From Terriglobia bacterium (GTDB taxonomy: Bacteria; Acidobacteriota; Terriglobia; JAIQFV01): a stretch of 64,000 nt of DNA. The notes under the pieces were generated by a model. It made no database searches, was not told the DNA's origin, and was given only the letters and a program-made list of their open reading frames with translations. Shown one piece after another: positions 26,723-40,735 of this stretch (positions are counted from its first letter, which is position 1; the number at the start of each line of letters is the position of its first letter). The stretch lies in NCBI GenBank assembly GCA_028716525.1, contig JAQUPQ010000016.1:1-64000 (forward strand), given 5' to 3'. The position numbers were made by a program, and so were the translations under genes.

Positions 26723-26744
26723 TTGAACTAATTAATTAGTTCAA
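26723..26744. promoter_or_regulatory. Perfect 22-bp palindromic operator of the toxin-antitoxin operon
   Basis: The half-site TTGAACTAATT is followed directly by its exact reverse complement. The last base is the A of the antitoxin ATG, and the predicted transcription start is within it. Phd/YefM antitoxins autoregulate by binding palindromes at this place, so this is a likely operator. Confidence 0.75.
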
Positions 26745-27082
26745 TGGATGAGTTTACTATTAAGAACACTAGCCCTATGACGAATATCATTTCGGCACTC
26801 ACCGCACGGACCCAGCTCGGGCAGATCATTAAGCGGGCCAGCCAGCAAGACGAACGCTTTGTCGTGGGCCACCGCGGGGAACCCAAAGTCATTATCATGG
26901 GCATCCGGGACTACATTAAAGCCTTGGCCCCAGCGCCCCAATGGCTGAAGGCCATCCGCGCTGAAGCCAAGCGCCGAGGCCTCAATCAGCTGACCCCCCG
27001 CGAGATCAACCGGGAGATCAAAGCCGTTCGGAAGCAAGGGCGCGCCCGGGCGAAGCAAACCAGTAAAGCCGCCGTCAAATGA
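26744..27082 (+). CDS. Phd/YefM-type antitoxin
   Basis: A 112-residue antitoxin that should bind and neutralise the PIN toxin and repress the operon. The N-terminal DNA-binding fold is visible in ISALTARTQLGQIIKRASQQ, then DERFVVGHRGEPKVIIMGI, as in Phd proteins. The C terminus is long and very basic (INREIKAVRKQGRARAKQTS), unlike the short toxin-binding tail of classical Phd. The ATG at 26744 touches the operator; the ATG at 26777 (MTNIISAL) is an alternative that better fits the family N terminus. The stop overlaps the toxin ATG by four bases. Confidence 0.85.
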   Translation: MDEFTIKNTSPMTNIISALTARTQLGQIIKRASQQDERFVVGHRGEPKVIIMGIRDYIKALAPAPQWLKAIRAEAKRRGLNQLTPREINREIKAVRKQGRARAKQTSKAAVK

Positions 27083-27507
27083 TCACGGTCGTGCTGGATA
27101 CCAACATTGTGGTCTCGGCCTTCCTCAACGAGGACGGTCTGGAAGCGGCGGTGTTGGATCTGGCGTTAAATAGGCGGCTGTCTCTGATTCTTTCTGAACC
27201 GATTTTGGACGAATACACCCGGGTTCTGCACCGTCGGAAGCTGGGTCTTGATCCCAAAAAGATAAATCACGCCCTCACCCAGATCCGCCATATCGCAAGA
27301 ATGGTTAAGCCGACAAAAGCAGTTTCTGCCTCGAAAGATGATCCAGACAACCGGTTCCTGGAGTGTGCTGAGGCTAGTTCAGCTGACTTTCTGGTTACTG
27401 GCAACACCCGCCATTTCCCCAAGGAATGGAAAACGACTTCGGTGGTGACTGCCCGGCAGTTGATTGAGGGCATCGTGCTTAATTTGAGGCGGGAGAAGGA
27501 TATGTGA
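27079..27507 (+). CDS. PIN-domain toxin (putative endoribonuclease)
   Basis: A 142-residue PIN domain, the ribonuclease partner of the upstream antitoxin. The N-terminal VVLDTNIVVSAFL gives the first metal ligand D7. Candidates for the others are E40 or E45 (SEPILDEYTRVL), D90 (DPDNRFLECAE) and D103 (ADFLVTGNTRHFP). These last two blocks mark the 'putative toxin-antitoxin system toxin component, PIN family' group. Coupled translation with the antitoxin (ATGA) is standard for such modules. Its own stop overlaps the start of an integrase remnant. Confidence 0.9.
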   Translation: MITVVLDTNIVVSAFLNEDGLEAAVLDLALNRRLSLILSEPILDEYTRVLHRRKLGLDPKKINHALTQIRHIARMVKPTKAVSASKDDPDNRFLECAEASSADFLVTGNTRHFPKEWKTTSVVTARQLIEGIVLNLRREKDM

Positions 27508-28477: not shown

Positions 28478-29191
28478 TGTGTCTGTGGACACTTCAACGA
28501 CCTCACCCACGAGTGTCATTGCACGGGTTTACTCATTCACCGGTATGTTTCCCGCATTTCGGGCCCTCTATCGATCCCATCAACATCCTCTCGCCTCACA
28601 TCAGCGAGGCAATTCAGTATCGGAATTTGGTTCGGAATTATTGGGCGTGAGGTCTTACAGCCTGATATTCAAATGAAGAATGCAGAGACACGACGCCACT
28701 CGTTGGCCCACAGGAGTAATCCCATAAATGTGCGTGCGGCTGCACACCCCGATCTATCGGGGTATACGGCCCTCTGTGAGAGACAGTTCCTTAACCGCGT
28801 TGTAGCCGTTTGATCCATGCTGCGCATCGGGATTGCACTTTGTACCAACTTTCAATGGAAATTTATTTCTTCCATTCCTCAGGTTAAACTTTACATCTCA
28901 CAAATGCCGGTTGTATCTTTTTGCTTGTCTGACATTTGATGACTGCACAGAAGGATTGGGGTTCAGCGAGCGCGACAGCTGTTGAGCTGATTGAGCGACG
29001 CGATGCACCAAGTCCAATGAGGAACTGATTCTTTATGGCTGCCGATCATCCACAGGCCCAGAGGTGGTTGACGAGTTGCGCTCGAAGCCCCAAGTCTGAC
29101 CTGGTCAGGGGGTCATGGGCAGGGTGGTACGGTACGGGCGTAGGGTGCATCGTCAAAGCCAAGCTCCGAATCATCGCAGGAGAGGTCTGAC
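28478..29191. other. Gene-poor spacer at the left edge of the sigma/receptor island
   Basis: 714 bases without a convincing gene. It holds the 27-bp palindromic repeat at 28742, a small TGACC-T-GGTCA palindrome at 29097-29107, and the GGAGAGG ribosome site of the sigma gene at its right end. A 65-codon frame at 28479-28676 is not supported. Confidence 0.5.
28742..28768. repeat. 27-bp palindromic direct repeat, left copy
   Basis: The core CCCCGAT-CT-ATCGGGG (28747-28762) lies within a 27-base unit that recurs at 36785-36811 with 24 of 27 bases identical. The two copies differ only in the two central bases and one flanking base, and they flank the ECF/anti-sigma/receptor/Asp-box gene block. 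Confidence 0.8.
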
Positions 29192-29881
29192 ATGATTTCT
29201 TGGAGCCGAAAACAGGGTTCTGAGTCGCTTCGATCTCTGCGCGACGAGTCATTGTGCCGGGAAGTCACAGCCGGGAGCCACGAAGCTTTCTTGGAATTGT
29301 TTGATCGTTACTGGCACCAGGTTTTTCGTTTGGCTTACGTCGTCATCCGAGACGAATCGGAAGCGGAAGACCTGGCCCAAGATCTGTTTCTCGACGTTCA
29401 CCGTAGCATGTTGCGCTTCGATTCCCAACGCGGATCGTTTCGTACACTTCTTTTCAGGTACGCTTACACTCGTGCCATTGACCATCGCCGTCGCCTTGAA
29501 ACTCGCCGCTTCTACTCTCAGGTGCCGTTGGAAGACGTTCTTGGCTCATCGCTGGCGGGCAGTACGCCACTGGGCTATGGTCTATCGATAGAAGAGGGGA
29601 CTCGTTTGATTGAGCAAGCCATGAAGCACTTGGATGAGAAGCAGCGCATGACTGTCAAGGCCTATTTCTTTCAGGGGCTTTCCCTCGAGGAGATTGCCAC
29701 AAATATGGGCGATTCCTTCGGCAATGTCCGGCATTACCTGTACCGAGGCCTGCACAAGATGCGCAGGTTCTTGACGGCCAGAAGCGCTGCGTGGTTGCCG
29801 GGAGAATCGAATCGAGCTCTTAATGAAAGGTTACAGGACAAGATGACAGCAGGTTTCACTTCGGAGGTACCCGATGTCTGA
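29192..29881 (+). CDS. ECF-type RNA polymerase sigma factor
   Basis: 229 residues with sigma region 2 (HEAFLELFDRYWHQVFRLAY, SEAEDLAQDLFLDVHRSM, GSFRTLLFRYAYTRAIDHRR) and region 4 (LDEKQRMTVKAYFFQGLSLE, then EIATNMGDSFGNVRHYLYRG). GGAGAGG lies just before the ATG. It overlaps the anti-sigma gene by eight bases and is followed by a TonB-dependent receptor, so it probably controls envelope or nutrient-uptake genes in this island. A C-terminal tail of about 35 residues after region 4 is longer than usual. Confidence 0.9.
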   Translation: MISWSRKQGSESLRSLRDESLCREVTAGSHEAFLELFDRYWHQVFRLAYVVIRDESEAEDLAQDLFLDVHRSMLRFDSQRGSFRTLLFRYAYTRAIDHRRRLETRRFYSQVPLEDVLGSSLAGSTPLGYGLSIEEGTRLIEQAMKHLDEKQRMTVKAYFFQGLSLEEIATNMGDSFGNVRHYLYRGLHKMRRFLTARSAAWLPGESNRALNERLQDKMTAGFTSEVPDV

Positions 29882-31091
29882 ACACGAACGATATGAAGAA
29901 CTCGCATCATTGGCGGCAATCGGAGAACTTTTGCCCGGCGAGTACGAGGAATTTGCCCGCCACAAGCAATCTTGCAGCAGGTGTCGGGAAACAGTTGCCG
30001 AGATCGGCTCTGTCGCCACCTCCACATTTCTTGCTGGGGGAGGGAAGGACGAAAATCCCATCGCTGCGGATGATCGATATCGCCGAGCGCGAGAAGCGGT
30101 CGCCCGACGTCTTCCTTTGGTGATTCCGGCCCCGGCGATGCGCCACCGCTGGCGCCTCGTCGCAGGCGGCATTGCCGCGGCACTGGTGGTGGGTATCGGC
30201 GTCGGGGCAAGCATCGTACCGAAACAGACTCAGAAAGTTCTTCCGATGCAGACGAACTCTTTATCCGGCAATCTTAAAGTCAAAGCAGCGCCCGTCAAGG
30301 GCCAGTCAACTTCCGCACAAAGCGACAGGGTGGATTGGGAAGCTGTGGTTACTGAATTGGAGAAGCAGGTCGACGAGGTCCGAGGTGAAAATCGAACGCT
30401 GCGGGAGAAGCTTTCGGCCTCCGATCAAATGGCTCAGGGCATGAAGACTCGATTAGACACTGTGGTTTTGCAATCCAACGCTCAAGCTCAGCAACTCGAG
30501 CAAACCCATAATGACTTGAGCACGATGCAAAGTAAGCTCACCCAGGCGCAGACCTTGATGGCATCTCACGGCGCGACGGTGAACTCACTCCAATCACAGT
30601 TGTCCGAAAAGGACGCGCGATTGAACGATGCCACCGCCAGCCTGGAGCGTGAACGGGAGATGTTGACGCAAGGACGCGACGTGCGCGACATCATGGGCGC
30701 TCGCGATTTGCACATCGTGGACGTTTTTGACACCGATGGGAGAGGCCGCGTACGAAAGCCTTTCGGCCGCGCCTTCTACACGCAAGGGAAGTCGCTCATC
30801 TTCTATGCGTTTGATCTGCCGACGAAGAACTTGCTCGACGGCAAGTTCGTTTATGCCGCTTGGGGAAGCAATAGCAATAAGCTGAAAGATCAAGCGCCTC
30901 ATCATCTTGGAGTTTTTTATTACGACGATCAAACGCAGCACCGCTGGGCGATGAAATTCAACGATCCCAAGGTGCTCGACGAGATCGACACCGTGTTTGT
31001 GACCCTTGAGCGCGTCGGCGAGGCTTTCACCCTCCCCAAGGGCAAGCCGGTCCTCGAGGCTTATTTCGGAACGCCGCCGAATCATCCGTGA
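29874..31091 (+). CDS. Zinc-finger anti-sigma factor with coiled coil and RskA-like outer domain
   Basis: 405 residues. The cytosolic ZAS motif is H30-x3-C34-x2-C37 (HKQSCSRC), one helix spans about 94-115 (RLVAGGIAAALVVGIGVGAS), and a long heptad-rich coiled coil runs about 155-270 (ELEKQVDEVRGENRTLREKL onward). A C-terminal domain (DLHIVDVFDTDGRGRVRKPF, RAFYTQGKSLIFYAF) resembles anti-sigma-K outer domains. The start has GGAGG seven bases upstream and overlaps the sigma gene. The coiled coil between membrane and sensor domain is unusual and could span periplasm or cell wall. It is expected to sequester the upstream sigma factor. Confidence 0.85.
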   Translation: MSEHERYEELASLAAIGELLPGEYEEFARHKQSCSRCRETVAEIGSVATSTFLAGGGKDENPIAADDRYRRAREAVARRLPLVIPAPAMRHRWRLVAGGIAAALVVGIGVGASIVPKQTQKVLPMQTNSLSGNLKVKAAPVKGQSTSAQSDRVDWEAVVTELEKQVDEVRGENRTLREKLSASDQMAQGMKTRLDTVVLQSNAQAQQLEQTHNDLSTMQSKLTQAQTLMASHGATVNSLQSQLSEKDARLNDATASLEREREMLTQGRDVRDIMGARDLHIVDVFDTDGRGRVRKPFGRAFYTQGKSLIFYAFDLPTKNLLDGKFVYAAWGSNSNKLKDQAPHHLGVFYYDDQTQHRWAMKFNDPKVLDEIDTVFVTLERVGEAFTLPKGKPVLEAYFGTPPNHP

Positions 31092-31094
31092 AGA

Positions 31095-31221
31095 GCAGGT
31101 GCCGGGTGTCGGGTGCCAGGAAATGCAAAAGCGTTCAGCGATCCTGTTTTTCCCTGGCACCTGAAACCTGACACTTGGTACCTGCTTTTCTCCTGACACC
31201 TGACACCCAACACCTGGAACC
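31095..31221. repeat. Inverted heptanucleotide tandem-repeat element
   Basis: The left arm 31096-31120 has three RGGTGYC units starting five bases after the anti-sigma stop. The right arm (about 31154-31220) has eight or more units of the complementary CCTGACA type. The element can fold into a long imperfect hairpin between the anti-sigma and receptor genes. Confidence 0.75.
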
Positions 31222-31307
31222 TTCTCCCTTCCCTCTGGTACAAATCTCCCTCCCAATCCGCATATTGACTGAATGTAGTAATGTACTCACCCGTTGGAGG
31301 AGAAATC

Positions 31308-34300
31308 ATGCTCACCAGCATGCGGTTGCGATTTCGGTGTTTGGTCCTGCTCGTCGTGGTTGCCGTCAGCACGGTGGTCTTGTTCAGCACTATCGTGTTA
31401 GCACAGGCAGAAACAGCCACGTTGAGTGGTGTCGTCACCGACCCTCAAGGAGCCGTTGTGCCCGGCGTAGAGGTTGTTGCGACGCGCATTGAAACCGGCA
31501 CCACCTTGACAACCGAATCCAATGGAGCGGGCATTTACTTCTTTACCGGCTTAATGCCCGGCCATTACCACTTGGTCGTGCGCAAGCAAGGGTTCAAAGA
31601 AATCGCGATCAAGGAGGTTGAGCTTCACGTCCAAGACAAGCTGGAGCGCAACTTTTCCCTCGACATCGGCTCTCTCTCTGAGACGGTCAACGTCGAAGGT
31701 GGGACGTCGCTGATAAATACTCAGGACGCAACAGTGAGCACCGTGGTGGACCGGCAATTCGTCGGGAACATGCCGCTCAATGGACGTAGCTTTCAGTCGC
31801 TACTAACCCTGACGCCAGGCATCGTGTCCGTTGTTTCTGGGGGCTCAGGAAACGTAGCCGGGTTCAGCCAGTTCAGCGTCAACGGCCAACGGGCAGTCTC
31901 CAACGCATTTATCGTAGATGGGGTCAGCGCCAATGTCGGGGCAAACCCCGGATCCATCAATGCCGCTTTTACGGCTGGCGACGCGCCCGGGCTCACCGCC
32001 TTCGGCACTACGCAGAGCATGGTTTCGGTCGACGACCTCGAGGAATTCAAAGTCCAGACCTCCAGCTACGCGGCCGAGTATGGCCGGCAGCCGGGCGGCC
32101 AGATCTCTATCGTCACCCGTTCTGGGACTAATCAATTTCACGGCTCGGCATTCGATTACCTGCGAAACGATGTATTGGATGCCAACGATTGGTTCGCCGA
32201 TCAAGCCGGGCAACCCAAACCGCCGGAGCGCCAAAATGACTTTGGCGGGACGTTAGGTGGGCCCATCATCATTCCCAAACTCTACAACGGCAAGGACAGA
32301 ACCTTCTTCTTCTTTTCATATGAAGGCCTACGTTTGCGCCTGCCGCAATTCAATCTGACCGATGTCCCAACCCTGGCGCTCAGGCAGACTGCACCGGCGG
32401 GACTGAGGCCCATCTTGAATGCGTTTCCACTACCCAACGGGAGGGACCTAGGCAATGGGTTCGCGGAATTCACCGCCGCGTACTCGGACCCGTCGAGCCT
32501 GAATGCAACCAGTATCCGGGTTGATCACACGATCAACAACAAATGGACGTTATTTGGAAGGTATAACCACGCTCTTTCATCGAACAGCACAAGAAGACAA
32601 GGCATTAATCTCAGCACCGTGGACAATCCTAGTACAGATACTCAGACTATTACCGTGGGTGCAACGGCGGCCCTCACTCCCAGCATCACCAACCAGTTAA
32701 GGGCTAATTACAGTTACTTCGGTGCGAACAGCCATCTATACGCGGACAACTTTGGCGGAGCGACTCCTCTTCCGTTGAGCTACTTTGTCCCGAGCCAGTA
32801 CGGCACGACCGCAAATCAAGGCGCTGTTCTTTTCCTCTTCTCCGGATTAACGGTCTCCAACGGGCCAAATGTTGACCTCGTTGATTATGGCTACACCCGT
32901 CAACGGCAGCTCAACATCGTGGACAATTTCTCCGACAGCAGAGGTTCCCATCAACTCAAGTTCGGTGTGGATTACCGCCGGCTCACCCCGGCCCTCGCAT
33001 TCAACAATTATGTCTTTAGTGCAACCTATACCTCTCTTCAAAACCTGCTTAACAACGTTAACACTGCGAGGGTTAACGCTGGGAGCCCATCGCGCCCGGT
33101 ATACTTGAATTTCTCAGCTTACGGGCAGGACACCTGGAAGCTCTCTCGCCGCCTTACCTTCACTCTCGGACTGCGCTGGGAGTTAAATCCTCCACCACGA
33201 AATGCCACCGGCGTAGACCCTCTGGCTGTCACCAGCATTGCGAATCTTGCCACCATGCAAGTGGCGCCACAAGGCAGCAGCCGTTACAAGACGACTTATA
33301 ACAACTTTGCGCCCCGCATCGGGGTGGCCTATCAGCTGTCGCAAACGCCAGGTCGCGAGACCGTAGTGCGTGGCGGCTTCGGCGTCTTTTATGACACCGG
33401 TAATGACCAGAACTCGTATCCATTCCAAGGTTTCCCGTTCAACGGTACGCGTTTATTAACGAACATTTCTTTTCCTCTCTCGCCAGCTCAGGTTGCCCCA
33501 GTCCCGGTTCCTGTAAGCGTGATCCCTCCCTACGGCATAATGGTCGTGACCGATCCATCCCTAAAGCTGCCCTATACGTTGCAGTGGAGCTTTGCGGTAG
33601 AACAATCGCTCGGCAAGAACCAAGCGCTTACCGTTTCCTATGTCGGGGCTGCCGGTAGGAGGCTGTTACAGACAACTCAATACATGCTCGCCAAGATCAA
33701 TCCGGCCTTCACCACCGTGAATTTGCAGACCAACAACGCTACTTCCGACTATGATGCCCTGCAGAGCCAGTTCGAACGGCGCCTGTCGCGTGGCTTGCAG
33801 GCCCTGGTCTCCTACACCTGGTCGCACGCCCTTGATGACGACTCAGCCCCCAGTACCGTTTTCAGGCTCGCAAAGCGCGGCAACGCGGATTTTGACATTC
33901 GTCACAACTTCGCGGCCGCAGTGAGCTATGACATTCCTGTACCTGGCAAGAACTCGACAGTGGAAACCATCTTGGGTCACTGGTCCCTCGATACCACGCT
34001 CCATGTGCATTCGGCGCTGCCGTTGGATCTGATTGCGACAACCCTGATAGACCCAGCGACAGGTAACACGGTCAATGTGCGGCCCAACGTAAACCCGGGC
34101 GTCCCAAATTACATTGACGACCCGAGTGTACCAAGTGGCAGGCGAATCAATAGTGCGGCATTCTCCATTCCTCCCACCGGGCAGAGCGGGACGTTGGGAC
34201 GCAACGTCCTCCGCGGACTGCCGGCCTCGCAGGTGGATCTCGCCTTGTGGCGGCAGATTCACTTGGTGGAGAGGCTCAGCCTGCAACTCCGGGCGGAGGC

Positions 34301-34469
34301 ATTCAACGTCTTCAACCACCCCAACTTTGGAAATATCCAGACCTCCTTAACGGCCGTCAACTTCGGCCAGGCGACGGGCATGCTGAACCGCCAGCTCCAG
34401 GGACTCAGCACGCTCTACCAGATCGGTGGCCCGCGTTCGTTGCAGTTGTCCCTCAAACTAGTCTTTTGA
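31308..34469 (+). CDS. TonB-dependent receptor with carboxypeptidase-regulatory-like domain (Oar-like)
   Basis: About 1053 residues, an outer-membrane beta-barrel importer or adhesion protein. A signal peptide ends near TIVLAQA. Next is a carboxypeptidase-regulatory-like beta-sandwich (about 35-115: TLSGVVTDPQGAVVPGVEVV), then a plug domain (MPLNGRSFQSLLTLTPG, FSVNGQRAVSNAFIVDGVSA, QPGGQISIVTRSGTNQFHGS). The long barrel ends SLQLSLKLVF with the terminal Phe needed for outer-membrane insertion. No N-terminal signalling domain of the FecA type is present, although a sigma/anti-sigma pair is adjacent. GGAGGAG five bases before 31308 fixes the start. Confidence 0.9.
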   Translation: MLTSMRLRFRCLVLLVVVAVSTVVLFSTIVLAQAETATLSGVVTDPQGAVVPGVEVVATRIETGTTLTTESNGAGIYFFTGLMPGHYHLVVRKQGFKEIAIKEVELHVQDKLERNFSLDIGSLSETVNVEGGTSLINTQDATVSTVVDRQFVGNMPLNGRSFQSLLTLTPGIVSVVSGGSGNVAGFSQFSVNGQRAVSNAFIVDGVSANVGANPGSINAAFTAGDAPGLTAFGTTQSMVSVDDLEEFKVQTSSYAAEYGRQPGGQISIVTRSGTNQFHGSAFDYLRNDVLDANDWFADQAGQPKPPERQNDFGGTLGGPIIIPKLYNGKDRTFFFFSYEGLRLRLPQFNLTDVPTLALRQTAPAGLRPILNAFPLPNGRDLGNGFAEFTAAYSDPSSLNATSIRVDHTINNKWTLFGRYNHALSSNSTRRQGINLSTVDNPSTDTQTITVGATAALTPSITNQLRANYSYFGANSHLYADNFGGATPLPLSYFVPSQYGTTANQGAVLFLFSGLTVSNGPNVDLVDYGYTRQRQLNIVDNFSDSRGSHQLKFGVDYRRLTPALAFNNYVFSATYTSLQNLLNNVNTARVNAGSPSRPVYLNFSAYGQDTWKLSRRLTFTLGLRWELNPPPRNATGVDPLAVTSIANLATMQVAPQGSSRYKTTYNNFAPRIGVAYQLSQTPGRETVVRGGFGVFYDTGNDQNSYPFQGFPFNGTRLLTNISFPLSPAQVAPVPVPVSVIPPYGIMVVTDPSLKLPYTLQWSFAVEQSLGKNQALTVSYVGAAGRRLLQTTQYMLAKINPAFTTVNLQTNNATSDYDALQSQFERRLSRGLQALVSYTWSHALDDDSAPSTVFRLAKRGNADFDIRHNFAAAVSYDIPVPGKNSTVETILGHWSLDTTLHVHSALPLDLIATTLIDPATGNTVNVRPNVNPGVPNYIDDPSVPSGRRINSAAFSIPPTGQSGTLGRNVLRGLPASQVDLALWRQIHLVERLSLQLRAEAFNVFNHPNFGNIQTSLTAVNFGQATGMLNRQLQGLSTLYQIGGPRSLQLSLKLVF

Positions 34470-34602
34470 AGGACGGCGGCCTGCAGACCTAAGTTATGCC
34501 GGGTCCGAAACGCGTTTGCCCTCGTTGTGTTATTCGCGACCCCGCCATAAGAAGATGGAGTGCAATGAACGCCCTCAAGAAAGAGAGGAGAGAGATTCCA
34601 GA

Positions 34603-36510
34603 ATGCAACATATCGCAAAGGTAAAAATGCTTTGTTTGATTTTCGTTTTATCAACTGTGAGCGCCTTCGCTCAAAAACTATCGCCTCGAATTATCGTTGG
34701 ACCCAATATTCTTGTGAGCCAACATGAAGACTACCGGCACCACGAATCCATGTTGGCGGCAAATCCCACCAACCCTAAAAACCTGGTCGCAACATCCATC
34801 AGCGGGTCGCGTCCCGACACTGGTGCTGCGACAAAGACGTATGCAAGCACAGATGGCGGATATACCTGGACTGCGACTGCCTTTCCGGAGCAGTGGGATG
34901 CGAATATTCCATTTGGAGCGGGTGATCCGCAGGTGGCTTTTGGAGCCACAGGGACGGCGTACTTCATCACCCTTCCGGGAGTGCCCGACAAACCGGGCAA
35001 CCGTGTGGATGCTCTTTTTGTTTACCGATCGGAAGACGGCGGCAAACATTGGGCGCCACCGGTTCGCCTTCCCGCGTGCGATCATCCTCAGATTGTGGTC
35101 GACAAGACTGGCGGCAAGTTCAACGGCAATGTTTATATTGGTGTGCTGACGCATAGCAACAAGAAACACGCGATCGGGATTTTCAAGTCTGAAGACGACG
35201 GGCGTTCCTTTGAGGGCCCCATCATCGCAGTTGAAGCCAAGGATGGAGCCCAGGTCACGACGCCCGTTGTGTTAAGTGATGGCACACTGTTTGTTCCTTA
35301 CACCGAGTTCGAAATAAAGAAAGAGGGACCTCCGAAATACGGCGACAACCGCCCCATCGAGTTTGTCACGTCTTCCGACGGAGGGCGGTCCTTTTCAAAC
35401 TCCCAACCGATAGCCGTACAGCATACAATTGTCGGAAATTATGAATATGAAAAATCACGTAATCAACCGAACGCATTTCCGAAACTTGGGCTTTCTTTCG
35501 ATTGGGCGAACCCTCCGATGTTTGCGGGCGACAGCCATGGGACTGAGTTCCGTGACAGGATATACGCGGTGTGGAATGATTGTTGTCTTGTGAATTCCCG
35601 TGTGCTGTTCACGTATTCTTCCGATCGAGGAAAATCCTGGACAAAGCCCCGCCCGCTGAGCCCGGATATTCCGGCCAACGCTTATCAATACCAACCTGCC
35701 CTGGCTGTTAACAACCGCGGGGTTTTGGGCATTCAGTGGTTCGACACTCGAAACTCGCCTAAGCAGGACAGCTACGATCTGTACTTCACTGCATCGGTCG
35801 ATGGCGGACAATCCTTCCTGCCCGTGAAACGCGTCACCTCAGAATCCTCCTTTCCTGCCACGAAAGGGAACCTGGCTCCAACCATCAGCTTTAGCTTAAA
35901 TGACGGACAATCTGCAAGCCTGCATCTTGCCAACGGGTACGTGCAGCATCCTAACGGTGGCGACTACATGCTTTTCGAAGCGGACTCAACGGGGGTCTTC
36001 CATCCGTTTTGGGTGGATAGCCGTACAGGGACACAACAACTGTGGACCGCGCATGTTCGTGTGGAAGACAGTCAACTCAAACCCAAACTGGAAGCGCAGT
36101 CGACAGTTATGACGGACGTTACAAAGGACATCCTTCTTGTTGGTGGTCCGATTGAATTTGACGCCGCCAGCAATCAAGCGGTGATCGATATTCGACTGAA
36201 GAACATATCAGCTCACCCCATTAGCGGTCGTCTCTCGGTAACCGTAAAAACTTTTGGATTGCCTCCCGGATGGTCTGCCCAACGCAGACCTGCAGCCAAT
36301 TTACGTTCACCTGACATTCTGAACGCCACGAATAATAAAACCGGCGCTGGCGCTGTATTTGATTATTCGAGGACTCTAGGCGATTTTGAGTCTTTAGGCC
36401 CTGGTGAGATTACGGAAGCGATACCGTGGCGACTGCAGCTGCAGGGCTTGGCCCAAACACTTATTCTGAAAGTCCAGGTAACGTCTTCGGGTGCGCTGGG
36501 CGGAAAGTAA
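34603..36510 (+). CDS. Secreted Asp-box (BNR) beta-propeller, sialidase-like
   Basis: About 635 residues with a signal peptide (CLIFVLSTVSAFAQ). Six Asp-box motifs mark a sialidase-type propeller: STDGGYTW (82-89), SEDGGKHW (143-150), SEDDGRSF (196-203), SSDGGRSF (257-264), SSDRGKSW (about 339) and SVDGGQSF (about 397). The C-terminal 130 residues look like an immunoglobulin-like beta domain (VVIDIRLKNISAHPISGRLS). The Asp box does not prove sialidase activity, since the catalytic Arg triad and nucleophilic Tyr cannot be assigned by eye. It follows the receptor on the same strand, suggesting a glycan release/uptake pair. A GAGAGGAGAGAG tract precedes the ATG. Confidence 0.8.
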   Translation: MQHIAKVKMLCLIFVLSTVSAFAQKLSPRIIVGPNILVSQHEDYRHHESMLAANPTNPKNLVATSISGSRPDTGAATKTYASTDGGYTWTATAFPEQWDANIPFGAGDPQVAFGATGTAYFITLPGVPDKPGNRVDALFVYRSEDGGKHWAPPVRLPACDHPQIVVDKTGGKFNGNVYIGVLTHSNKKHAIGIFKSEDDGRSFEGPIIAVEAKDGAQVTTPVVLSDGTLFVPYTEFEIKKEGPPKYGDNRPIEFVTSSDGGRSFSNSQPIAVQHTIVGNYEYEKSRNQPNAFPKLGLSFDWANPPMFAGDSHGTEFRDRIYAVWNDCCLVNSRVLFTYSSDRGKSWTKPRPLSPDIPANAYQYQPALAVNNRGVLGIQWFDTRNSPKQDSYDLYFTASVDGGQSFLPVKRVTSESSFPATKGNLAPTISFSLNDGQSASLHLANGYVQHPNGGDYMLFEADSTGVFHPFWVDSRTGTQQLWTAHVRVEDSQLKPKLEAQSTVMTDVTKDILLVGGPIEFDAASNQAVIDIRLKNISAHPISGRLSVTVKTFGLPPGWSAQRRPAANLRSPDILNATNNKTGAGAVFDYSRTLGDFESLGPGEITEAIPWRLQLQGLAQTLILKVQVTSSGALGGK

Positions 36511-37764: not shown

Positions 37765-38742
37765 TCACGCCTTGGGAGCGTAATATCCGCGCTTACAGCG
37801 AACAAAAATCTTCTTGGGACCGCTTTTCGGTGTCACTTTCACTTGCAGGGCGCGCCAGGAACCGTCGTGGGCTGTGTTTGTCGGATAGTATCCCAAAAGG
37901 TACTGGCTGCGGATGTCGTGCGCGATCTCTTTGGTCACGCCGTTGATTTGATCGAGAGATTCAGGAAAATACTCTTTTCCCCCCGTGGCCTCCGACAGTT
38001 CCTTTAAAATCTCCGCCTCTCGAGGCAGGGCATGTTTGAAGAACCGCGACTTGGGCGGCTCGTCCAGCAACCCGATACTGTAAATCTGCGCCCCTGATTC
38101 CACGGCAAAATCGAAAGCCTGCTTGAAGGTGTAATGCTTTCCGGGACCCGGGTTGTCTTTTCCGTCGGTCACCAGAAGGATGACTTTTTTGTCATACTTT
38201 CCCAATTTGATATGCTGCAGCCCCAGGTAGATGGCGTCGTACAGCACCGTACTGCTTCGAAACTGGACGTTTTCCAAAGCATCCTTTAATTCTTCGACGT
38301 CGTTGGTAAAATCCTTGTCCAATTCCAGGTAGGCCTCGTCGGCAAAATCAATAAGGAAGACTTCGTCGTTGGGATTGCTGGTCTGCATGAAATCGACCGC
38401 GGCGGCGTTGACCTTTTGGCGCTTCATATACATGCTGCCGCTGGCGTCGAGCAGCAAACCCGCCGTCACGGGGACATCCTCGTGCCGGAACACCTGGAGA
38501 GGCTGTTCGATGCGGTCCTCATAGACGTGAAAATCGTCCTTTCCCAGATTTTCCACAATTTGATCTTTCTCGTCGGTGACCGAGACATCCACGAGAACCA
38601 GATTGACGTTGACTTTGATGCGGGGTTCTTCAGGGGGCGCTTTCTGCTGTGAGGCGGCTCGAACCGAAAGCAGGAGGGTTGCTGCAAGTCCGCACACAGC
38701 CAATACGGCCGTCGGAACAATAAGGCGACGCGAAGGTTGCAT
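37765..38742 (-). CDS. Secreted VWFA-domain protein (VWFA-related Acidobacterial type), copy 1
   Basis: 325 residues with an N-terminal signal peptide (ATLLLSVRAASQQ). A short beta region (IKVNVNLVLVDVSVTDEKDQ) precedes GKDDFHVYEDRIEQPLQVF, then a von Willebrand A domain with MIDAS DASGS (99-103), and LVTDGKDNPG later. The C terminus ends in IRSQYLLGYYPTN, W/RALQVKV and RCKRGYYAP, the signature ending of the acidobacterial VWFA family. The domain probably mediates metal-dependent protein contacts in the envelope; the actual role is unknown. A paralogue lies immediately upstream on the same strand. Confidence 0.9.
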   Translation of the reverse strand: MQPSRRLIVPTAVLAVCGLAATLLLSVRAASQQKAPPEEPRIKVNVNLVLVDVSVTDEKDQIVENLGKDDFHVYEDRIEQPLQVFRHEDVPVTAGLLLDASGSMYMKRQKVNAAAVDFMQTSNPNDEVFLIDFADEAYLELDKDFTNDVEELKDALENVQFRSSTVLYDAIYLGLQHIKLGKYDKKVILLVTDGKDNPGPGKHYTFKQAFDFAVESGAQIYSIGLLDEPPKSRFFKHALPREAEILKELSEATGGKEYFPESLDQINGVTKEIAHDIRSQYLLGYYPTNTAHDGSWRALQVKVTPKSGPKKIFVRCKRGYYAPKA

Positions 38743-38818
38743 TAATTTATTTCTCCACTTTCAAAACGTCTGGTTTGAACGATGGGTGCCGGTTTCACGT
38801 GATGGTCCGCATCGTGCC

Positions 38819-39760
38819 TCAGTTGCTCGGGGCGTAGTATCCGGATTTGGAATTCACGAGAAGGGGAGGAAGCCCCCGCGGAGGGTTCAATTTCACCTTG
38901 ATTTTTCGCCAACGGCCGTCGTGTTGCTCGTTGCTGGAGACGTAGCCCAACACATATTCACTACGCAATTCGATGGCGATTTTTGTGACAATGTCTTCCA
39001 GATCGTTAAGACTGTTGAGCGTGTAGGCCCGCCCGCCGGTCATTTCCGCCAGATCGCCGAGCAGCGAAGGCCCGCGCTTTTCTTCCGGGGCGTCGGCATA
39101 GGGATTGTAAATTCCAATGGCAAATATCTGGGCGTCCGATTCCTTGATAAACTCGCGCACATCGCGCTCGCTGTAGCGGCTGTGATTGTCGCCGCCGTCG
39201 GAAATGATGAGCAAGGCTTTTCGGGGATAGTGTCCCTGCTCGACCTTCTCGATTCCATAATAAATGGCATCCAACAGCGCCGTCTGCCCTTGGGCATGGT
39301 CAAAGATGACGCGTTGCGAAATGTCGTCCACCTTGGATGTGAAATCCTGTTCTAATCGCACCCGATCGTTGAATCCCACCATGAAAAACTCATCCTGGGG
39401 ATTGGCCAGTTTCATGAATTGAATGCAGGCTTCGCGGGATTTTTCGATCTTGCTGGTCATGCTTCCGCTGGTGTCGAAAATCACCCCGATCGAAATCGGC
39501 ATGTCTTGACTGCTGAAGTGCACGATAGCTTGGGCGATCTTGTCTTCGTAGACCGAAAAATTCTCTTTCTCAAGCCCGGTCACAAATCGATTCATGGAAT
39601 CGTAGACCGTGGCGTTCACCAGGACCATCGATACATCGACGGCCATGGGTTTTTGTAAGGTCAAAGCTTCTGATTTGGGGTCGACCTTCTTATCGTCGGC
39701 GAACTGCGGAAAGGCACAAATCAGCAGCAACAGAAAAATCCTACACGCCAAGCCGCGCAT
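38819..39760 (-). CDS. Secreted VWFA-domain protein (VWFA-related Acidobacterial type), copy 2
   Basis: 313 residues, signal peptide IFLLLLICAFPQFADD. It has the same layout as its neighbour: SMVLVNATVYDSMNRFVTGL, EKENFSVYEDKIAQAIVHF, MIDAS DTSGS (96-100), LLIISDGGDNHSRYS, and the C-terminal LRSEYVLGYVSSNEQHDGRW, SKSGYYAPS. A GGGGAGA ribosome site lies just before the ATG at 39760; a longer frame to 40516 runs antisense through kdsB and is rejected. The pair looks like a tandem duplication. Divergent transcription from kdsB leaves a 204-base shared promoter region. Confidence 0.9.
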   Translation of the reverse strand: MRGLACRIFLLLLICAFPQFADDKKVDPKSEALTLQKPMAVDVSMVLVNATVYDSMNRFVTGLEKENFSVYEDKIAQAIVHFSSQDMPISIGVIFDTSGSMTSKIEKSREACIQFMKLANPQDEFFMVGFNDRVRLEQDFTSKVDDISQRVIFDHAQGQTALLDAIYYGIEKVEQGHYPRKALLIISDGGDNHSRYSERDVREFIKESDAQIFAIGIYNPYADAPEEKRGPSLLGDLAEMTGGRAYTLNSLNDLEDIVTKIAIELRSEYVLGYVSSNEQHDGRWRKIKVKLNPPRGLPPLLVNSKSGYYAPSN

Positions 39761-39964
39761 GATTCTATCTCCCCGGAAAATAAGTCCATGCGTTCCGTTT
39801 GCTGCTACCCAAGTTATTATGATATACCTTTTTCTAGCACACTCACAACTTGAGGTGCAATGTTTGTTTTGTAAAAGTTTCATTACAAATGCCCGCGCCT
39901 TCCCGAGTGATCCGGAGACGCCGAAAGCACTGTCCGGCGACTTCTTTGAGATTCTGATTTCACG

Positions 39965-40735
39965 ATGAGTCGTAACGTTATTGTTGTGATTCCCGCGCGA
40001 TTTAGCTCCACACGATTCCCCGGAAAACCCCTCGTCAATATCTGCGGTCACACCATGATTGAATGGGTTTATCGTCGTGCTTGCAGGGCGCGAAGCGTGG
40101 GAAGAGTGTGTGTGGCTACTGACGACACGCGTATTCGCGATGCCGTTTCGGCCTTTGGCGGACGCGTGGTGATGACCTCGCGGCGCCACACGACGGGCAC
40201 AGACCGGCTTGCGGAGGTCGCCCGCCGGATCCGCGAAACTGTGATCGTCAATGTGCAAGGCGACGAACCCCTCATCGACCCCCGGGCCATCGATGCCACC
40301 GTGCGCGCTTTTGTGGAATCCCGGGCCCGCTGCCCGGTCGCCACGCTCAAATCGCGGATTTGCGATGCCCGGGAAGCTCGCGATCCCCATGTAGTCAAAG
40401 TTGTTACTGACGATCGCGATGAGGCTATTTACTTTTCGAGAGCCCCTATTCCCCATGTGCCCGCAGCCCGGCTGAAAGAGACGACCGGACATCGGGCGAA
40501 AGGCCTCTTTAAACATCTGGGCCTGTATGTGTATTCGCGATCATTCCTCCTGAAATGGGCGCGGTTGAAGACTTCTTATTTGGAGCCTTTGGAAAAGCTG
40601 GAGCAGTTGCGAATTCTGGAGAACGGATATAAAATCAAGGTCCTTGAAACTCCCTACTCATCTCCAAGTGTAGATACGCCGCGAGACGTGCGGATAGTGG
40701 AAGAAGAAATTCGAAAAAGACGAATTCAATTCTAG
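39965..40735 (+). CDS. kdsB: 3-deoxy-manno-octulosonate cytidylyltransferase
   Basis: Activates Kdo with CTP to give CMP-Kdo for lipopolysaccharide core synthesis. It has 256 residues, standard length. The signature PARxxSTRxPGKPL is at 10-23 (PARFSSTRFPGKPL). Further motifs are VCVATDDTRI, VNVQGDEPLIDP with the metal-binding Asp, YFSRAPIPH, and the C-terminal VDTPRDVRIVEE. It heads a Kdo cluster whose second gene, CTP synthase, makes its substrate. Confidence 0.96.
   Translation: MSRNVIVVIPARFSSTRFPGKPLVNICGHTMIEWVYRRACRARSVGRVCVATDDTRIRDAVSAFGGRVVMTSRRHTTGTDRLAEVARRIRETVIVNVQGDEPLIDPRAIDATVRAFVESRARCPVATLKSRICDAREARDPHVVKVVTDDRDEAIYFSRAPIPHVPAARLKETTGHRAKGLFKHLGLYVYSRSFLLKWARLKTSYLEPLEKLEQLRILENGYKIKVLETPYSSPSVDTPRDVRIVEEEIRKRRIQF

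Follow-up and report, generated by a model that had tools for sequence, protein, structure and literature searches.

The stretch analyzed here (hereafter, the window) comprises 64,000 nucleotides, positions 1 to 64,000 of contig JAQUPQ010000016.1, from a soil bacterium of the class Terriglobia (Acidobacteriota; genome of 4.2 Mb, 96.5% complete, in 104 contigs). It contains a module of four open reading frames (ORFs), all on the forward strand, that code, in this order, for an extracytoplasmic function (ECF) sigma factor, an anti-sigma factor, an Oar-like TonB-dependent receptor, and a secreted BNR protein. The ECF gene (29192..29881), which yields Pfam matches to Sigma70_r2 (8e-12) and Sigma70_r4_2 (8e-10) and has a Shine-Dalgarno sequence, GGAGAGG, upstream, overlaps by 8 bases with the anti-sigma ORF (29874..31091); the product of the latter shows a zinc motif HKQSCSRC (HxxxCxxC), one transmembrane segment, a coiled coil, and an outer beta domain of the RskA_C type. 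The receptor ORF (31281..34469) matches CarboxypepD_reg (2e-18), Plug (1e-4) and the barrel model OMP_b-brl_4 (9e-161), and its likelier start is ATG 31308, with GGAGGAG five bases upstream and a signal peptide following. The fourth ORF (34516..36510; start more likely at ATG 34603 than at TTG 34516) encodes a beta-propeller with six Asp boxes (S-x-D-x-G-x-x-W/F) and a C-terminal beta-sandwich (Pfam BNR_2, 4.5e-11). Thus, ORFs, Pfam matches and motifs agree on the four-gene, one-direction order that a prior sequence-only reading had described. The Pfam scan also bears out its claim that the receptor lacks a FecA-type signaling domain: no STN/secretin-TonB domain was found in the receptor, and CarboxypepD_reg is present at the N-terminus instead, followed by plug and barrel. 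There is no SusD-like ORF among the module genes. A receptor of this type is by itself common, the genome having 50 CarboxypepD_reg matches, and the G+C content (54.7% in the module, 54.2% in the window) gives no signal of foreign origin.

Relatives of the anti-sigma factor were found in 26 of 101 related genomes, and the comparison of gene orders covers 79 loci (labeled L with a number below) from named genomes, the records of which are named Acidobacteriota, many of them Terriglobia or Acidobacteriaceae; the counts add the window. Since the search pattern covered the C-terminal domain of the anti-sigma factor only, the neighboring genes were not selected for. An ECF gene lies directly upstream of the anti-sigma gene in 61 of the 74 evaluable loci, and an Oar receptor gene follows on the same strand, no more than 2.5 kb further downstream, in 66 of 75 (immediately in 63). 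The order of ECF, anti-sigma, receptor and secreted protein, thus, recurs in other genomes far above chance and is not unique to this genome, so that the earlier description of a self-contained module of regulator, receptor and secreted protein holds. The position after the receptor (slot 4) is usually taken by a single co-directional gene, the product of which has a signal peptide.

The commonest slot-4 family (32 loci, ~710–860 residues, with the nucleophile motif GFSxx in most) has, as its best NCBIfam model, the Atxe2 lasso peptide isopeptidase (L070, 3e-50, below the curated cut-off) and, as its best match among solved structures, AtxE2 (5txc, 1e-26). Convergent to the isopeptidase gene is a gene for a GATase_7/Asn_synthase protein, for which the best model is the lasso peptide isopeptide bond-forming cyclase (NF033535, 1.4e-78, below the cut-off); beyond the cyclase follow lasso B2 (NF033537, above the curated cut-off) and a PqqD-like B1. 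The cyclase is present within the fetched stretch in 25 of the 30 evaluable isopeptidase loci. Most cyclase loci contain, between slot 4 and the cyclase, small ORFs with a leader YxxPxL and Ile/Val near position -2, e.g., MKYETPELTALTPAINAIQ; Ile/Val(-2) has been reported for Acidobacteriaceae (PMC10368454). At the level of the family, a link of the sigma/anti-sigma/Oar module to lasso peptides is, in our view, very likely. Acidobacterial lasso clusters are listed in a paper that contains none of the terms sigma, TonB and isopeptidase (PMC9064862), and we found no report in the literature of sigma/anti-sigma/Oar genes in such clusters, an absence that is no proof of novelty.

The lasso precursors predicted in Terriglobia often have a conserved acidic tail (AYEADE, YADWE, ELDD); precursors of this kind lie between slot 4 and the cyclase in L043, L045, L066, L070, L076, L079, L085, L103, L119 and other loci, and two or three tandem precursors are present in many loci. 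L106, which combines the module with lasso genes, is from Silvibacterium bohemicum S15, a relative that has been cultured. Some lasso clusters include a kinase-like gene (L106, L109, L111), and a gene resembling prolyl oligopeptidases by sequence follows B2, besides the slot-4 protein, at L070:18448-19290, L079:11108-11869 and L119:18524-19309.

The window receptor falls on the lasso side of the family. The receptor tree (76 sequences) places all 27 cyclase-linked members, and the one from the window, in a single 45-member clade with an SH-aLRT support of 100 and a long stem; this clade leaves out 19 Oar paralogs from the window's own genome. The window receptor keeps the clade signature at all but ~6 of ~75 positions. 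Among the 19 module genomes, B2 is found in five of the seven with a receptor of 39% or higher identity to that of the window (by the main match) and, by strong matches, in none of the 12 others, with L029 (a G029-type locus with a split match) counted among the latter; these points are not independent because the genomes are related. A PDB sequence search with the window receptor returned no matches.

An ECF-type promoter-like element, GGTACA-N16-CGCA, precedes the receptor gene on the forward strand (31237..31262), ~45 bases upstream of the likely start, and a second copy of the same element, facing left on the reverse strand, lies upstream of the ECF gene (28821..28846). The form GGTACA-N16-CGYA, which resembles known ECF promoters, has six exact copies in the whole genome (five in the backwards control), two of them in the module. 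With other intergenic DNA and the whole genome as controls, the strict motif was found in 17 of 65 homologous anti-sigma/receptor gaps, as compared to 0.12 expected from other intergenic stretches, and never in the reverse direction, and 24 of the 40 intergenic copies over all loci precede a receptor gene, these counts leaning upward because the loci that were counted had also served to find the motif. The layout with a left-facing copy is seen in many homologous loci, sometimes before a divergent receptor gene, and the lasso-linked loci often have the variant TGATAMA-N15/17-CGNA. The ECF factor of the module presumably reads the GGTACA-N16-CGYA element. The classic ECF GGAAC motifs show no enrichment in the anti-sigma/receptor gaps. 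A dyad, TACCT-N16-CATC, that is enriched in the gaps and looks like a promoter was rejected as it encodes the conserved anti-sigma C-terminus YLxxxPNHP. In the window, the anti-sigma/receptor gap (31090-31224) is filled, just upstream of the promoter-like element, by related repeats of the CACCTGAAACCTGACAC type in direct and inverted orientation.

The anti-sigma factor of the window has its transmembrane segment at residues ~95-113. AlphaFold predicts an uninterrupted coiled-coil helix of 128 residues (147-274, core pLDDT ~91), followed by a beta-sandwich; the relative placement of the domains is not predicted, the overall pTM of this single-chain model being low (0.35). A helix of 128 residues is ~19 nm long, close to the width of the periplasm. 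RskA_C (PF10099) is matched in 13 of 16 relatives (best, 4e-9), and the window member scores too low for a match, although its alignment extends over the domain. The coiled coil has a hydrophobic repeat every 3.5 residues and a median of zero prolines. The distance from the membrane to the RskA_C motif, mostly coiled coil, spans 163-169 residues over the middle half of a set of 63 sequences, with a coefficient of variation of 0.04 versus 0.10 for the cytoplasmic linker, at an identity to the window sequence of ~30%; conservation reaches the very end of the C-terminus (PNHP). The coiled coil and the outer domain, which the sequence-only reading had singled out as a possible route of sensing, prove, accordingly, to be conserved and constrained in length. 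The spacer would be long enough to span the periplasm, and a bridge to the receptor would be its natural reading. The anti-sigma factor has no Pfam match to a FecR domain, and Foldseek with its model gave weak Ig-like matches only (E above 0.01).

What, then, might the window copy sense? No lasso B2 was found anywhere in the genome, as represented by its 96.5% complete assembly, nor a lasso-type cyclase, the Asn-synthase matches reaching at most 191 bits versus at least 580 for full-length lasso cyclases. There are no lasso genes or precursors near the module, and this local absence is real because the module lies well inside a 77.7-kb contig. A scan of the window for lasso precursors gave small ORFs only, and by eye no lasso-like leader and core could be made out in any of them. 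As the biosynthesis genes were sought and not found, the window module is not itself a lasso cluster; this copy either lost the peptide-making genes or never had them. The module belongs to the Terriglobia sigma/anti-sigma/Oar family and not to FecI/FecR/FecA; in its workings it would resemble lasso clusters of the isopeptidase type and TonB-coupled surface signaling. We regard it, with moderate confidence where the ligand of the window copy is concerned, as an orphan surface signaling and uptake unit for a lasso-type ribosomal peptide, corresponding in Terriglobia to the sigma/anti-sigma/TonB-receptor/isopeptidase portion of the alpha-proteobacterial astexin-like clusters. A peptide produced by other cells, and not a sugar, is the probable signal for the window module.

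Several observations weigh against this assignment, beginning with the lack of B2 in the genome and of lasso genes and precursors around the module. In slot 4, the window has a BNR propeller and not an isopeptidase, and a nearby cyclase is missing in three of the five evaluable BNR loci, the window counted. Lasso-linked members are scattered over the anti-sigma tree, with 14 label changes, and the window sits on a long branch. The left-facing copy of the promoter-like element in the window has no obvious target gene. Finally, some members have a cargo with no relation to lasso peptides (ASPIC/FG-GAP, phosphodiesterase, GDSL, SBBP propeller) and, therefore, the regulatory core can also work with other ligands.

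This variation of the cargo speaks for general scavenging of peptides or proteins, whereby any peptides would be taken up, slot 4 would hold any fitting secreted peptidase or binding protein, and lasso peptides would be one specialization; likewise, some slot-4 proteins are S9 peptidases nearer to Dpp5 than to AtxE2 (L021). However, the clade of the window receptor holds every lasso-linked receptor, and the AtxE2-like proteins are the commonest slot-4 family. We consider such unspecialized scavenging unlikely.

The propeller occupies the isopeptidase slot in the window. Its full-length relatives are found in the same slot of L055 (35% identity, 5e-114), L050, L096, L085 and L079, with L079 and L085 being lasso clusters that include a cyclase, B2 and a precursor. 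A separate search from the propeller gave L171, in another genome, where receptor, BNR and isopeptidase genes follow one another with a convergent lasso cyclase gene, and L170, with the order receptor, S9 isopeptidase-like protein, FMN_bind, BNR. At L168:6236-14816, several propellers related to that of the window are encoded in tandem, with an Oar receptor gene a few kb away. The fold is of the sialidase type (Foldseek match 2ber, 1.4e-12, for a model of low-to-moderate confidence, pLDDT 68), and the sequence-only reading had proposed a glycan, perhaps sialic acid, as the ligand. In a glycan system, the propeller would act as a secreted sialidase-like hydrolase, the receptor would import the released sugar, and the anti-sigma factor would sense the uptake, much as in SusCD/ECF loci. 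Indeed, the fold of the propeller is matched best by GH33 sialidases and other glycoside hydrolases, and in L024 an arabinofuranosidase/BNR protein is encoded two genes past a related receptor. However, what the propeller shares with GH33 is the Asp-box fold, whereas the RIP motif ([FYW]R[IVL]P) is absent in six relatives, and in the family alignment, two rows of which are only ~20% identical, a single Arg and no Tyr or Glu are invariant, so that the catalytic constellation of GH33 (Arg triad, Tyr, Glu) is not there. In addition, a PDB sequence search with the window BNR protein, that is, against sequences of known structure, gave no matches. Because slot 4 is usually taken by a lasso isopeptidase beside lasso biosynthesis genes, a peptide ligand is a better guess than a glycan; the glycan proposal is not supported by these data, and we deem it distinctly improbable. 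In the lasso context, the propeller would be a binding or processing protein. Very improbable, too, is a degenerate remnant of a lasso cluster that lost biosynthesis and isopeptidase genes and is decaying in the rest: the long anti-sigma branch, the left-facing promoter copy without a gene and the related repeats in the anti-sigma/receptor gap would fit it, but the four ORFs are intact and preceded by plausible ribosome-binding sites, the promoter copy in front of the receptor matches exactly, and the receptor signature residues are retained.

For an orphan unit that senses a lasso-type peptide, the following sequence of events can be envisaged. In the absence of the ligand, the zinc domain of the anti-sigma factor would hold the ECF factor, and the rigid coiled coil would cross the periplasm and set the RskA_C domain near the periplasmic face of the receptor (CarboxypepD_reg/plug). 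Ligand binding or TonB-driven movement of the plug would alter the contact between RskA_C and the receptor, resulting in inactivation or proteolysis of the anti-sigma factor; the freed ECF factor would then transcribe the receptor and propeller genes from GGTACA-N16-CGYA, and the propeller could bind, present or process the peptide in place of the isopeptidase. We put forward only tentatively the full combination, in which the anti-sigma factor crosses the periplasm by a coiled coil of near-fixed length and reads the receptor directly via RskA_C, and the window copy eavesdrops on the lasso peptides of its neighbors. With such direct reading, domain exchange of the FecA/FecR type would not be needed. 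In the known systems, the TonB-dependent transducer is reported to contact the anti-sigma factor when no signal is present (PMC11637429).

In alpha-proteobacterial lasso clusters, a sigma/anti-sigma pair, a TonB-dependent receptor and an AtxE2-type isopeptidase are encoded beside the lasso genes; the role of the lasso isopeptidases and the linked sigma/anti-sigma genes is still open (PMC9266682), and the known cases are of the FecI/FecR type. The Terriglobia module shares with clusters of the astexin/sphingopyxin/benenodin type the sigma/anti-sigma pair, a TonB receptor of the lasso-linked type and, in the family, the AtxE2-like slot-4 protein. Unlike these clusters, it employs an anti-sigma factor with zinc-finger, coiled-coil and RskA_C parts rather than FecR and an Oar-type receptor without a signaling domain, and the window copy has a BNR propeller for the isopeptidase and no biosynthesis genes. 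The joint encoding of an ECF factor, a membrane anti-sigma factor and a TonB-dependent receptor, with probable regulation of the receptor gene, is as in FecI/FecR/FecA, whereas the anti-sigma factor lacks FecR, the receptor lacks STN, and the long coiled coil may be the bridge. As in ECF systems of the SigK/RskA type, there are a zinc motif and an RskA_C-like outer domain, but ~165 residues, mostly coiled coil, separate the latter from the membrane, and the system is coupled to an outer-membrane receptor. The Bacteroidetes SusCD/ECF loci, similarly, combine CarboxypepD_reg and a TonB-dependent barrel with ECF/anti-sigma genes and a secreted protein; the Terriglobia module differs from them in having no SusD-like gene and no FecR-type anti-sigma factor, and its relatives adjoin lasso rather than glycan genes. 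The occurrence of the same wiring in Terriglobia, with different parts, argues that both the sensing and the recovery of a lasso peptide are under selection. The orphan copy without biosynthesis genes makes the hypothesis of exchange or eavesdropping testable, and the coiled coil of near-fixed length offers a concrete, equally testable route by which an anti-sigma factor could read an outer-membrane receptor.

Some minor observations concern the surroundings of the module and the variety of slot 4. One family of genomes (L022, L032) has the same sigma/anti-sigma core with a different type of receptor and, in slot 4, a DUF7948/SBBP propeller of ~1200-1400 residues, a slot-4 family (c5) also present in L036, L038, L039 and L040; lasso B2 is absent from these genomes. 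In the window, a small gene pair resembling an antitoxin and a PIN toxin lies upstream of the module (26744-27507), and two adjacent related ORFs, VWA-domain-like by eye, are on the reverse strand at 37765-40516, convergent to the BNR gene; in L022 and L023, relatives of these ORFs (cluster c10) are located upstream of the module.

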